DNA of 64,000 nt from Lachnospiraceae bacterium (GTDB lineage: Bacteria > Bacillota > Clostridia > Lachnospirales > Lachnospiraceae), in the NCBI GenBank assembly GCA_030524635.1, contig JAUNGG010000002.1, positions 62,001 through 126,000 of the forward strand, written 5' to 3'. The first letter of the stretch is position 1. Every line of letters begins with the position of its first letter. The notes beneath the pieces were generated by a model. It was given only the letters and a program-made list of their open reading frames with translations, made no database searches and had not been told where the DNA came from. Made by a program: the position numbers and the translations under genes. Shown here in pieces: positions 23,875 through 30,737 of this stretch.

Positions 23875-23903
23875 TTGACATTATTGATGCTCAGTGTTAT
23901 AAT
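23875..23903 (+). promoter_or_regulatory. Consensus sigma-A promoter of the GNAT leader
   Basis: Perfect TTGACA (23875-23880) and TATAAT (23898-23903) with a 17-base spacer. It drives the leader peptide/attenuator region in front of the acetyltransferase. Such a perfect promoter is typical of mobile resistance genes. Confidence 0.9.
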
Positions 23904-23938
23904 TATGCAAAATCAGATAGAAAGCGAGGTGCTCAATT

Positions 23939-24001
23939 ATGGGAAATAACAGGGTTAATATGAAATCTGAATATCTTTTGAGGACCTCGGTTGCATTGTA
24001 A
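23939..24001 (+). CDS. 20-residue leader peptide
   Basis: ATG with a GCGAGGTGCTC site in front encodes a 20-residue peptide that begins MGNNRVNMKSEY and ends TSVAL. The Shine-Dalgarno region (925-934 of the 23 kb block, CGAGGTGCTC) can pair with GAGGACCTCG at 23980-23989 inside the peptide frame (one mismatch). A terminator hairpin follows at 24023-24050. Promoter, peptide and terminator together form a classic attenuator like those before ribosome-protection and erm-type genes. The activity is inferred. Confidence 0.65.
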   Translation: MGNNRVNMKSEYLLRTSVAL

Positions 24002-24022
24002 TAGTATTTTGTAGATTTTTTT

Positions 24023-24050
24023 GCCGTGGTTTAATTAGCCGCGGCTTTTT
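24023..24050 (+). terminator. Attenuator terminator before the GNAT gene
   Basis: Stem GCCGTGG/CCGCGGC (one G-U pair) with an AT-rich loop and a T run, between the leader peptide stop and the acetyltransferase start. It would stop transcription unless leader translation is disturbed. Confidence 0.75.
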
Positions 24051-24139
24051 GTTTGTTTTTGATGCAATCTTCTGTTCCTTATAGATGTTCATACAAGATC
24101 AACTTACTGATTAAGTCAGGACAATTTATGGAGGAATTT

Positions 24140-24586
24140 ATGATTCATCTTAGAAAAATTACAGAAGAAAACTTTATTGACGCATTTAATCTGAAACTCG
24201 CACCAGAACAAGAACGCTTTGTTTCACATCCGATTCGCAGTCTCGCACAGGCTTATGTTTATAGGGAGCAATGTCAGCCTTTGGGAATATATGAAGATGA
24301 CACTATGGTTGGCTATGTTATGGTGATTTACGATTATGATATCCCTGAATATGATATATGGCATATGATGATTGATGTATCGAAACAGAAACGGGGCTAT
24401 GGTAGAGCTGCATTGGATCGGGTGCTTGATTATATCAAAGCTAAACCTTTTGGCGCTTCAAATCGGGTAACTTTAACCTGTAACAGGGATAATATCCAAG
24501 CACTAAATTTGTATAAGAGTAGAGGCTTTACAGAGACCGGAGCAGCGGACGAAGATGAAATAGAACTATCACTGATCATGCAGTAA
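24140..24586 (+). CDS. GNAT family N-acetyltransferase (spermine/spermidine BltD-like or resistance-type)
   Basis: 148 residues with the GNAT core: MVGYVMVIYDYD (beta 4), WHMMIDVSKQKRGYGRAALDRVL (motif A, acetyl-CoA loop RGYGRA) and NIQALNLYKSRGF (motif B). The N-terminus, EENFIDAFNLKLAPEQERFV, resembles polyamine acetyltransferases of the BltD/PaiA type. GGAGG lies five bases before ATG 24140. It is controlled by a promoter/leader peptide/terminator unit and lies inside a mobile-element scar, so a drug-modifying role is possible. The substrate cannot be read. Confidence 0.8.
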   Translation: MIHLRKITEENFIDAFNLKLAPEQERFVSHPIRSLAQAYVYREQCQPLGIYEDDTMVGYVMVIYDYDIPEYDIWHMMIDVSKQKRGYGRAALDRVLDYIKAKPFGASNRVTLTCNRDNIQALNLYKSRGFTETGAADEDEIELSLIMQ

Positions 24587-24727
24587 CAAATTCCTATTTA
24601 TCAGGCTGGTCGTCTCGCCTAAAAGCTGAATATCAGCCGCCCACCGGCGGCACACCAGGCAGGAAATCAGAAATGGTTTCCTGCTTTTCTTTTGCCCAAA
24701 ACCAACCACAGGAAGGAGGAAGCCGAT

Positions 24728-25227
24728 ATGCCCTGTCCCCACCATGATATAAAAATCGTCCAGCGCAGCAATCACCAGTCAGCCGTAGCCGCCGCAGCTT
24801 ACCAGAGCGGGGAACAGCTGTTTTCCGAATACGACCAGAAACAGAAATATTATTCCCATAAAAGTGAAATCGTCCACACCGAAATCATGCTGCCGCCCCA
24901 TGCCCCGCGGTCATACGCAGACCGGAATACCTTGTGGAACGCCGCCGAAGCCATAGAAAAACAATGGAACTCCCAGCTTGCCCGGAGGTTCGTGCTTGCC
25001 ATACCGAGGGAACTTCCCCCGGAACAGTACGCCAACCTTATCCGGGACTACTGCCGGGAGTTTTTCGTTTCCAAAGGCATGATTGCCGACTTTGCCATCC
25101 ATGACAAGGGGGACGGAAATCCCCACGCCCACATCCTTCTTACCATGCGGGCGATGGACGAAACCGGGAAATGGCTCCCCAAGAGCCGGAAAGTCTACGA
25201 CCTTGACGAGAACGGCGAGCGTATTCC
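24728..25227 (+). pseudogene. MobA/MobL relaxase, truncated after ~165 residues
   Basis: Begins MPCPHHDIKIVQRSNHQSAVAAAAYQSGEQL after GGAGGAAGCC, the standard MobL/MobQ N-terminus. It carries the HUH metal site (H133-A-H135 in NPHAHILLTMR). Homology continues through SRKVYDLDENGERI, then the frame enters unrelated DNA at about 25224 and stops at 25240. Full-length MobL proteins are several hundred residues, so the helicase/C-terminal part is lost. The intact version nicks oriT of mobilisable elements. Its GC content is higher than that of the neighbouring GNAT region, so the scar is composite. Confidence 0.85.
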
Positions 25228-25308
25228 AACATCACCATGACGCTGAACTATTACGCACATGCGACTTTTGCTTCTGCGAAGGCTGAAATGGATAGGCTGG
25301 CGGCATAG
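25225..25308 (+). pseudogene. C-terminal remnant of a tyrosine recombinase/integrase
   Basis: In the frame ending with TAG at 25306-25308, the codons read SNITMTLNYYAHATFASAKA...RLAA, the last ~28 residues of a transposon-type integrase. They include the NITMTLNYYAH motif with the catalytic Tyr. The rest of the integrase is missing: the sequence joins directly to the cut relaxase. This shows an internal deletion between relaxase and integrase of one element. Confidence 0.75.
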
Positions 25309-27453: not shown

Positions 27454-29703
27454 TCATCTGTTTGCCGGTTCCGCATTGTCCTCTCCATTTACCGCCAGAA
27501 TCCGGTCTACCACAAGCTGCCTGAATTCCGGACTCAGCATAGCAAAATATGCGGTAAAGCCAGTAACCCGTACCACCAGATCCGGGTACTTAGATGGATC
27601 CTTATGTGCCTCCAGTACCTTATTCTTGTCAATAATGTTAATATTCAAAAGCGTATTGCCGTCTTCCAGAATTGTGCGGATCATTGCAACCATCTTTTCC
27701 ACCCCCTCTTCTGTTCCGGCGATTCCCGGGTCCAGCTCAAGCTGCACCGGGGCGCAGTTTCCGTATCCTGGCTGTACACTTGCAATCGAATTTGCCATCG
27801 CCGTTACTGCACCGTCCCTTCGAAAGCCAATGGTTGGATTGGCTCCATGGTTGATTGCCTCCCCGTTAAAACGCCCATTTGGTGTAGCCCGCACATGACT
27901 TCCGAATTCCAGTGTATTGGACCAGCTGAACCAGCCAGGGATAAACTGGATTTCCGGATAGTCCGGATCTTCCTTTCTTGCTTTGTCCACCTGCTGACGG
28001 ACTAAGCTTGTATAAAGCTCATTGATCTTTCTTGCCCATTTATCTCCCAGTGTGTTTCCTCCGCAATAACGCTGACTGTGAAGCATCATCTGGCGAATGT
28101 ATTCTCCATCGATATCCTTCCAATCCAACTCCAGCTGTTTCGTCAATGCCTTCCAGGTGATCTTCCCCTCCTGTTCGATCCTCTGCTCACATGCTGCAAA
28201 GCTGTCCGCCACGGTTCCGATACCTGCCCCATCCATGCACATATTAAAATACCTGGCACTCTTGGTCACATCCGCGCCTTTTTCAACCGGTCCCTGGCTC
28301 AAAAGATTGCAGATCAGCTCCGGCTCATTCTGATCCTGGTGGTGGAGATGGAACAAAATTCCTCTGGCTGTGGTTTCCACCGCACGGGTCAGATGCTTTT
28401 CAAAATGCTTCCACAGCACTTTTGTGGACGGTTCTTTTTGCCCCGCCTCGTCCATCATCTCAAAATATGCTACCTCAAACACCTTTGCCACATTAATTTT
28501 TACTAAATCATTTAAGGTATATTCCATTCCAGGAATGCTCATCCAGGAACAGCCTGCCGCCAGCCGTTTTCTTGCCAGATTTCTATCATAACCACAGCGC
28601 ATAAATCCGTTTACCAGACTGTTGTCACCAGAATACCTGGGCCATGCATTTTTATTTTTAAACAGATAACGAACCGATGTCTTGAAGAAATCCTCGTTCA
28701 TATTATCATGAACACGGACGGTTAAATTGCAGGCAATATTGATCCAATCTGCTGCCTCCAGAATCAAATAGGAAATATGAGATGCCATGTCCTGTCCGTC
28801 TTCTCCCGGCCCTGCCAGCTGGTAATATCTGGTATCATTTAAGAACAGGCAGGCAATATAGAACTTTGCCGTTTCATCATCAATAATTCCTTCTGCAATA
28901 TCATGCTCATAAAATGGCCGGAGCAGTTCATCTAACTGACCACCGCTGGGTCCCCGGTTATACAGACGGCTGAAAAAGCTAAACCAGCACATCCACTGGA
29001 TGCATTCCCTTAAGGTTTCTGGTCGTCCGGCGGCCATCTTATGATTGACTTCTGCCATCTCTTCCAGGTTCTTTTTCAAATACGGATTCCGCTCTTCTTT
29101 GGAAAGTTCACCTAGCTCCTGGCTGATCCTGATTAAAAAGCGGATAATTCCTTCTACTACCATAATTTCGCTTTCGTAGAATTCCTGACACTCTGGTTTT
29201 GAATTGATCTTCTGATATTTCTTCAGTTTTTCCAGAATTCCGCCCCATCCCATCTCAAATCCCATCCGAAGATCTGGCGTAAAATGGCCGTCTGAACCAA
29301 TACCACATACAATATTGTACTGTTCAAATGCTTCCTTGAGGTCATCATATGGGATATCGGGATTCCAGATTGCTCCCTTCTGCCTTGTCATAAAGAAAAA
29401 GCCTCTTCCCACAAAAGCATCCAATGGGTCACAGTACAGCGGATGCTCTTCCAAAAGTTTACAGTAATTTGTCCGCCAGCCCTCATAACCATAGTAACTA
29501 CCATTAGCGTTATTCGGAATAAATTCAAAATGAAAATCATCTGGCGGAACCACTCGTCCATAATCATCCTCATCCAGGCCGCCTTCCATGTCAATCTTTT
29601 CCTGTGTCTGTTCCAGCTTGCGCTTTTTTAATAATCGTATCCGTTTGTCATAGCTGAATTGCTCTGTCTCCGGAAATTCATTGATAAACTGAATTTTTCC
29701 CAT
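27454..29703 (-). CDS. Glycyl radical enzyme of unassigned specificity (PFL-like)
   Basis: 749 residues. The C-terminal glycyl radical motif is RVTGFTAYF with G715. The thiyl cysteine is C385 in LAAGCSWMSIPGMEY. Most lyase-type members read G-C-x-E at this point; here the residue two after Cys is Trp, so the usual Glu base is absent. PFL itself has Cys-Cys. The N-terminal PFL domain spans about 1-600 and the Gly_radical domain about 620-749. The protein is somewhat shorter than diol dehydratases (~790) and CutC (~850). It is encoded after its activase and before a bicupin and ManA-like isomerase. The substrate is probably carbohydrate-like, which is inference. Confidence 0.9.
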   Translation of the reverse strand: MGKIQFINEFPETEQFSYDKRIRLLKKRKLEQTQEKIDMEGGLDEDDYGRVVPPDDFHFEFIPNNANGSYYGYEGWRTNYCKLLEEHPLYCDPLDAFVGRGFFFMTRQKGAIWNPDIPYDDLKEAFEQYNIVCGIGSDGHFTPDLRMGFEMGWGGILEKLKKYQKINSKPECQEFYESEIMVVEGIIRFLIRISQELGELSKEERNPYLKKNLEEMAEVNHKMAAGRPETLRECIQWMCWFSFFSRLYNRGPSGGQLDELLRPFYEHDIAEGIIDDETAKFYIACLFLNDTRYYQLAGPGEDGQDMASHISYLILEAADWINIACNLTVRVHDNMNEDFFKTSVRYLFKNKNAWPRYSGDNSLVNGFMRCGYDRNLARKRLAAGCSWMSIPGMEYTLNDLVKINVAKVFEVAYFEMMDEAGQKEPSTKVLWKHFEKHLTRAVETTARGILFHLHHQDQNEPELICNLLSQGPVEKGADVTKSARYFNMCMDGAGIGTVADSFAACEQRIEQEGKITWKALTKQLELDWKDIDGEYIRQMMLHSQRYCGGNTLGDKWARKINELYTSLVRQQVDKARKEDPDYPEIQFIPGWFSWSNTLEFGSHVRATPNGRFNGEAINHGANPTIGFRRDGAVTAMANSIASVQPGYGNCAPVQLELDPGIAGTEEGVEKMVAMIRTILEDGNTLLNINIIDKNKVLEAHKDPSKYPDLVVRVTGFTAYFAMLSPEFRQLVVDRILAVNGEDNAEPANR

Positions 29704-29825
29704 TCCTGTTTCCTCCTCATAATTTATTTTCTACAGAAAAAGAATCCTGCTGTTCAGAATTCTTCGCCTGCAGCGGGTTGCTTCATCATTTCTGAATTTC
29801 TTTTGAATCCTCCCTTGCACTTTAT

Positions 29826-30737
29826 TTACTCCGTTTTCACCAGAATCCCTTCCTGAGATGCTATGCCCTTTAATTCTTCTAATCTGAATGGGGACAATGG
29901 CTTTACCCCTTTAAATGGATTTTTAAGCCCCAAACTGTCATATTTTGAATCTCCAAGAGGATTGAAATTCAGCAGTTCATAGTACATCCGCTTTTCACCC
30001 TGCAGTCCGGCCAGGAAGGCTGCTATCGCTCTGATATTTTCATTGGAATCTGTAGCTCCAGGAATTACAGGAGTTCTGACAATGTATGGGATTCCTAATG
30101 CATCAATTTGTCTTATGCTCTCTAATATCTGCTGATTTTCCACACCAGTCCAGTGCTTATGTGATTCAGAATCAAACAGCTTCATATCACACATGACCAA
30201 ATCCAGTTTCTGGATAAATGGCTGTATCGTTTCCCACGGGAAATTTAAGTTTGTTTCAATTCCCACTGAAATTCCTTCCTGATGGCATCTCTCTGTAAGC
30301 TCTGATGCAAACTCTAGCTGACACAGCACTTCGCCTCCTGTCAGCGTTACACCTCCTCCGCTGGTTTGGTAATAGGATCGATCTTGAACAATTTCCTCCA
30401 TTACCTGATCTACAGTCATCTTCTTTCCACTGACAGCCATTGCTCCTGCATAACAGATATCTGCACATTTTCCGCATTTAACACAAATATTTTTAAAATA
30501 CCTGTGAATGTTGTTAATTCGTTTCTGAGCTTTACACGGACAGGCATAAACACATTTATAGCAGCTAATACATTTGTTTGCATAATAGTGAAGATCCTGC
30601 CTCAAACTAATAGTTTCTGGATTATGACACCATTTACATGCCATATTGCATCCTTTAAAAAACACAGACGTTCGGATGCCCGGCCCATCATTCAGGGCGA
30701 ACCTCTCGATCTCGGTAATAAATGCTGTTTCTGACAT
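29826..30737 (-). CDS. Glycyl-radical enzyme activating protein (radical SAM)
   Basis: 303 residues. The radical SAM cluster is C30-x3-C34-x2-C37, followed by two ferredoxin-type 4Fe-4S motifs (C54/57/60/64 and C83/86/89/93), the usual insert of activases for non-PFL glycyl radical enzymes. SAM-binding GGE is in TLTGGEVL. It makes the glycyl radical on the downstream enzyme. Start with AAAGGAG before ATG. First gene of the operon; 122 bases separate it from the enzyme gene. Confidence 0.95.
   Translation of the reverse strand: MSETAFITEIERFALNDGPGIRTSVFFKGCNMACKWCHNPETISLRQDLHYYANKCISCYKCVYACPCKAQKRINNIHRYFKNICVKCGKCADICYAGAMAVSGKKMTVDQVMEEIVQDRSYYQTSGGGVTLTGGEVLCQLEFASELTERCHQEGISVGIETNLNFPWETIQPFIQKLDLVMCDMKLFDSESHKHWTGVENQQILESIRQIDALGIPYIVRTPVIPGATDSNENIRAIAAFLAGLQGEKRMYYELLNFNPLGDSKYDSLGLKNPFKGVKPLSPFRLEELKGIASQEGILVKTE

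Follow-up and report, generated by a model that had tools for sequence, protein, structure and literature searches.

The window, by which we mean the whole 64,000-nucleotide stretch of Lachnospiraceae DNA that was analysed, contains a leader region in front of a GNAT acetyltransferase gene. The features of the leader, the gene and its downstream flank are as follows:

23875–23903, plus strand: sigma-70-type promoter TTGACA-17-TATAAT with extended −10 TG, 12 of 12 consensus positions
23926–23929, plus strand: leader Shine-Dalgarno (SD) GAGG, read from the sequence
23925–23941, plus strand: segment 1, leader SD and start region, CGAGGTGCTCAATTATG, pairing with segment 2
23939–24001, plus strand: leader ORF of 20 codons, MGNNRVNMKSEYLLRTSVAL, frame kept in homologues
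23968–23990, plus strand: segment 2, codons 10–18, TGAATATCTTTTGAGGACCTCGG, with segments 1, 3 and 5 as alternative partners
24023–24050, plus strand: intrinsic terminator formed by segments 3 and 4 and a U-tract (hairpin 24023–24045, then T-run), conserved in homologues
24074–24097, plus strand: segment 5, post-terminator, GTTCCTTATAGATGTTCATACAAG, complementary to segment 2 and to the GNAT SD
24124–24137, plus strand: segment 6, GNAT Shine-Dalgarno region, TTTATGGAGGAA, pairing with segment 5
24140–24586, plus strand: GNAT acetyltransferase ORF, 148 residues, BltD-like [PF00583 (Acetyltransf_1), 2.6e-14]
24657–24686, plus strand: terminator-like hairpin behind the GNAT gene
24728–25240, plus strand: 5' fragment of a MobQ/MobA-MobL relaxase gene (PF03389, 4.3e-65, profile positions 1–151 of 224; MobQ NF041496, 206.3 bits against a cut-off of 200)

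A consensus promoter, a 20-codon ORF and a terminator ahead of the GNAT gene had been proposed in a sequence-only reading of this DNA, and all four elements were confirmed. The promoter ranks first among 17 sites in the 3 kb scanned, and transcription would start near position 23910. The leader ORF reads ATG GGA AAT AAC AGG GTT AAT ATG AAA TCT GAA TAT CTT TTG AGG ACC TCG GTT GCA TTG TAA; segment 2 includes the stretch TGAATATCT and segment 5 the stretch AGATGTTCA. Folding of the 151-nucleotide leader gave a z-score of −3.9, and none of 200 dinucleotide shuffles was equally low. Terminator-like sites by themselves were not in excess over the same 3 kb (4 against 3.2 expected from shuffles). The leader is present as a single copy in the 3.8 Mb genome to which the window belongs, and the window leader stretch has no family match in Rfam 15 at the gathering score (one weak chance match at E up to 1).

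The relaxase fragment lies between the GNAT gene and an opposite-strand manA-like gene and is likely the remnant of a mobile element adjoining GNAT. A few kb 3' of GNAT, on the minus strand (27454–30737), are genes for a glycyl-radical enzyme and its activating enzyme, recognized by eye from the translation.

Searching 397 Lachnospiraceae genomes at the DNA level gave five clear leaders (L002–L006). The sequence TGAATATCTNNTGRRGACCTC, present in all five, was used as the pattern for scanning 84,980 species genomes, which yielded 38 loci: 31 leaders, two of them cut or broken (L059 and L060), and seven chance matches within coding sequence that were rejected as leaders (L036, L043, L050, L052, L054, L065 and L067). 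Because the five BLAST matches were obtained without the pattern, conservation of the core is not merely an effect of the pattern. The hosts are Lachnospiraceae (Butyrivibrio, Pseudobutyrivibrio, Lachnospira and others) and Oscillospirales (Negativibacillus, Flavonifractor, Anaerofilum and Gemmiger), plus one MAG labelled Erysipelotrichaceae. Leader DNA similarity in plasmids and phages amounted to nothing or to chance 21-mers only, the pattern had no match in viral contigs, and PADLOC gave no match.

In about 30 homologues the downstream gene is nearly always the same BltD-like GNAT, at 68–96% identity; such high identity across bacterial families suggests transfer. In three Butyrivibrio loci (L042, L047 and L113) the leader precedes an unrelated α/β-hydrolase-like gene encoding an ABhydrolase-like_N domain protein, and a few decayed copies are further exceptions. 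Segment 5 and the SD are compensated in these three Butyrivibrio leaders. Several leaders are broken or altered: a TnpB-like transposase gene directly follows a GNAT-less leader (L006/L066), foreign sequence lies within the terminator stem (L059), and a palindromic insert of ~60 nucleotides lies between the terminator and segment 5 (L068).

The homologues retain the ORF, the helix between segments 1 and 2 (1:2; other pairings are denoted likewise), the terminator and the post-terminator motif. The earlier proposal of a leader-peptide attenuator would have been refuted by unconserved leader codons; the reading frame is retained. The ORF ends at codon 20 or 21 in 29 of 30 homologues, and over codons 2–9 its own frame has a pN/pS of 0.60, the other two frames 0.90 and 0.84. 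Variation is lowest at Arg/Lys5 and Asn7, and the peptide carries the conserved motifs R/K5-x-N7 and [SP]EYL[LM]xTS (core R/K-x-N...EYLLKTS). The R-L-R or +X+ motif of macrolide-type resistance leaders was not found in it. At the DNA level, TTGACA is retained by most close homologues, the 5' arm of the terminator (CCGTGG) is invariant across the aligned homologues, and the base of the terminator stem shows a compensatory change from G-C to A-U. Besides leader and terminator, the conserved blocks of the alignment are GATRTTCAYACAAR past the terminator, with segment 5 GATRTTCA invariant, and the GNAT SD. A 5' TCAGAT:ATCTGA helix seen in the window is not conserved and was dropped.

The same leader architecture, with altered sequences, also stands before other genes. 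A covariance model (R1) spanning the leader SD to the terminator was run on the 397 family genomes and gave, besides the GNAT leaders, further matches at E-values, which are rough, of 1e-11 to 5e-5; the best 13 (L100–L112) were read individually. All 13 lead into a divergent paralogue of RsgA, a ribosome-associated GTPase, or into a GNAT-RsgA fusion. All carry the ORF, GAGGT, CCTCGG, CCG(T/C)GG and the terminator, and in most the ORF has the core Y-x-M-K/M/V-T-S-V. RsgA directly follows the leader at eight of these loci (L100, L102–L105 and L107–L109), and a GNAT-RsgA fusion at three (L101 and L112, both read through, and L106, a 527-aa open frame in genome G245); L111 leads into the same GNAT start as the fusions, and L110 into a small RNHCP-type protein followed by what an antisense ORF indicates is RsgA. 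One additional RsgA-type locus is L114. A search for the same leader upstream of different genes, which the sequence-only reading had advised, thus led to divergent RsgA paralogues, GNAT-RsgA fusions and the α/β-hydrolase-like gene.

The one-frame GNAT-RsgA fusions (L101, 1–1395; L112, 3–1406; G245:C145; G156:C17) were read over more than 460 residues, have open frames of 527–531 residues and always stand behind the same type of leader. The small protein of L110 (1831–2259) is zinc-ribbon-like, has an RNHCPYC motif, is without an NCBIfam match and lies between the leader and the apparent RsgA paralogue.

The leader-controlled RsgA is a second copy. In nine genomes it scores 140–156 bits against TIGR00157 (cut-off 100), and the same nine genomes also carry a housekeeping RsgA at 213–252 bits; the genome of the window has the housekeeping copy only. 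Run with stricter filters on 391 genomes sampled across the class, the model had no out-of-family match at E ≤ 1e-4, and 12 RsgA-type loci gave no gathering-score match in Rfam.

The sequence-only reading had also noted that the leader SD can pair with the 3' part of its own ORF, and the pairing analysis bears this out. In the window, CGAGGT.CTCAA of the SD and start region pairs with UUGAG.ACCUCG (codons 14–17) in a duplex of −18.9 kcal/mol, and over 30 homologues the mean for 1:2 is −16.1 kcal/mol against −7.7 for shuffles. Over the same homologues the mean for 2:5 is −18.4 against −6.3, and for 5:6 it is −12.0 against −6.0; 2:3, at −9.4 against −5.2, hardly exceeds shuffles (0.046 in GNAT leaders and 0.11 in RsgA leaders). 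Each leader's own partners pair better than swapped ones for 1:2, 2:5 and 5:6, with permutation P values of 0.0, 0.0 and 0.002, respectively, that are overstated because the sequences are related. For 2:3 own partners were no better than swapped ones, and no covariation was found.

The changes in the supported helices are coupled. Leaders with GAGG have CCTC or CCTT in segment 5, and leaders with GAAG have CTTC. The register of 1:2 shifts between leaders: GCTCAATT goes with TTGAGG and GCTTCATT with ATGAAG, the latter making Leu14 Met. Over fixed columns, both sides have changed in 12 cells, where shuffles give 5.1. The RsgA leaders retain 1:2, 2:5 (−18.3 against −7.0 for shuffles) and 5:6 (−10.6 against −4.8) with altered sequences, for example GUGUG:CACAC in L101, GUAUG:CAUAC in L107 and CAUGAAGGCC:GGUCUUCAUG in L106; the segment 5 motif is not recognizable in L105 and L108.

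In staged folding, the RNA was folded at successive lengths, and the part preceding segment 2 was either left free or masked in the manner of a bound ribosome. With the transcript ending short of the second terminator arm, covering segment 1 brings 2:3 in the window from 0.00 to 0.76 (the mean from 0.10 to 0.67); with a transcript that includes segment 5, 2:5 in the window climbs from 0.00 to 0.86 (the mean from 0.47 to 0.85). In the window the GNAT SD is paired with a probability of 0.87 in the free full-length leader and 0.62 with segment 1 covered, so that it opens only partly. RsgA leaders switch like GNAT leaders. At equilibrium the completed terminator beats 2:3 in both the free and the covered state, so that an antiterminator arm would need to be kinetic. 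The translation arm therefore rests on the coupled changes, and the antiterminator on invariance and the kinetic argument; 2:3 is a plausible antiterminator, weaker than 1:2, 2:5 and 5:6.

We consider it likely that the leader is a two-armed, ribosome-dependent attenuator acting on both transcription and translation. An attenuator is supported by the conservation, the reading frame, the pairings in shuffle and swap tests, and reuse before other genes. In the resting state, segment 2 would be tied up by the start of the leader (1:2) or cleared by ribosomes completing the peptide; the terminator (3:4) would form, and segment 5 would mask the GNAT SD (5:6) in whatever mRNA escapes termination. 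In the induced state, a ribosome held early, at about codons 5–7 (R/K-x-N), would cover segment 1 and leave segment 2 bare. Its first partner could be the terminator's 5' arm (2:3, ACCUCGG with CCGUGGU), which would favour read-through. After transcription of segment 5, segment 2 could pair with that instead (2:5), so that the GNAT SD would stay open. The usual footprint of a ribosome places a stall that frees segment 2 at about codons 5–7, where R/K5 and N7 are the least variable residues. We infer inhibited translation as the trigger of the stall, probably by a ribosome-targeting compound.

As to the leader-peptide attenuator of the sequence-only reading, that part stands strongly, through conservation and own-partner pairing; a plain terminator attenuator does not, since 5:6 and 2:5 are the best supported parts. 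Segment 5, the second arm, was absent from it.

The protein encoded behind the leader is nearest to spermine/spermidine acetyltransferases rather than to any named resistance enzyme. Its nearest solved relatives are 2fl4 and 9dsb, both spermine/spermidine acetyltransferases, at low identity (phmmer against 2fl4, 1.7e-9 across residues 2–138). By fold and homology it is a predicted member of the BltD-like spermine/spermidine acetyltransferase family; no NCBIfam equivalog scored over its cut-off. The leader-bearing GNATs share a conserved acidic stretch, DYDIPEYD, and make up most of an inner clade of the GNAT tree, within which leaderless chromosomal members also fall. Some homologues at ~70% identity are without the leader, so that GNAT function does not depend on it. 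Five outer members of the tree (L077, L078, L079, L087 and L088), of which L087 and L088 are plasmid copies (Subdoligranulum and Paraclostridium), carry unrelated leader ORFs. Upstream of GNAT in these five there are alternatives of a G-rich stretch, CCCTCC and the SD. In folding of L077 and L079, CCCTCC covers the GNAT SD when the ribosome is at the stop codon, and the G-rich stretch of the leader takes CCCTCC and frees the SD when the ribosome is held early; L078, L087 and L088 are less clear as SD switches. The GNAT clade thus appears to be repeatedly associated with ribosome-sensing leaders, consistent with a role in responding to translation inhibition.

The outer homologues bear on a simpler, somewhat unlikely alternative, a translation-only attenuator of the erm type (1:2 and 5:6 against 2:5) in which the hairpin at 24023–24045 terminates partially and constitutively, with no effect beyond a lower basal expression. 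Their SD switches occur in short leaders with no evident terminator, and this explanation also accounts for coupled changes that occur in 2:5 and 5:6 and not in 2:3, and for the advantage of the completed terminator over 2:3. Against it, GNAT and RsgA leaders conserve ACCTCGG jointly with CCGTGG of the 5' arm (CCGCGG in L111) while the 3' arm drifts, and covering segment 1 brings 2:3 from 0.00 to 0.76. The two-armed attenuator remains our preferred reading.

It is doubtful that the leader senses a metabolite instead, such as polyamines as the substrate of a BltD-like GNAT. The precedent is the speFL arrest peptide, which precedes a polyamine-pathway gene and senses a metabolite, ornithine. The solved polyamine enzymes nearest to GNAT and the conserved acidic DYDIPEYD stretch speak for such sensing; the low identity to those enzymes speaks against it, as does the sharing of the leader architecture, and of control by this leader family, with RsgA paralogues, for which we know of no polyamine role. 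No sequence likeness to speFL was noted. Very improbable is an inactive mobile-element remnant conserved merely by recent transfer, for although the relaxase fragment adjoins GNAT, some copies are broken (L041, L059 and L066) and close copies occur in both Oscillospirales and Lachnospiraceae, divergent leaders keep their pairing despite changes on both sides, the frame is kept, and the window has a perfect promoter and an intact GNAT.

Parallels to the two-armed attenuator are known. As in ermC/ermB-type translational attenuators, segment 1 pairs with segment 2 and the SD is sequestered, with a stalled ribosome freeing segment 2 and releasing the SD; unlike them, the present leader has a terminator between the two switching segments, another gene and another peptide. 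In the yxjB (RlmA-II) leader of Bacillus subtilis, tylosin-dependent ribosome stalling is reported to block both termination and translation repression, and one leader likewise combines a leader peptide, a terminator and an SD-sequestering hairpin (PMC6851288); compared by architecture, not sequence, it differs in that yxjB encodes a 23S rRNA methyltransferase and NusG pausing is needed (PMC6851288). The hflXr/rli80 leader of Listeria monocytogenes, which lincomycin induces, combines a short leader ORF with an antiterminator and a terminator (PMC6310831). It places a paralogue of a housekeeping ribosome GTPase under leader control, paralleling the leader-controlled RsgA paralogue, but has a 14-residue leader with an RLR motif, acts on transcription only and controls HflX rather than RsgA or GNAT (PMC6310831). 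Searches of a mostly open-access literature found neither the leader peptide core nor the term RNHCP. Among the papers they listed on leader peptides or attenuation in connection with GNAT, polyamine acetyltransferases or RsgA, none reported the present leader. The type of mechanism is thus already known, and the leader family, its genes and its reach appear to be undescribed in Rfam 15 and the open literature.

The genes under the leader are best read, by analogy with HflXr, as ribosome-distress or resistance genes, and the recurrence of the switch before GNAT and a spare RsgA in related bacteria suggests that it turns on genes for handling blocked protein synthesis. Tentatively, we envisage a ribosome-distress regulon of Lachnospiraceae in which one leader family drives a second, specialized RsgA (sometimes fused to GNAT) that may, like HflXr, protect or rescue ribosomes exposed to drug or stress, plus a mobile GNAT with the same switch that may inactivate a translation inhibitor or modify the translation machinery. 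If so, the leader would mark genes without an assigned role in dominant gut and rumen bacteria (spare RsgA, GNAT-RsgA fusions and the mobile GNAT) as responses to blocked translation, and would provide a computable signature for more inducible ribosome-protection or resistance genes. It would pose the directly testable question of why a second RsgA sits under a ribosome-sensing switch, and a single RNA segment would serve both transcription and translation switches across unrelated genes.
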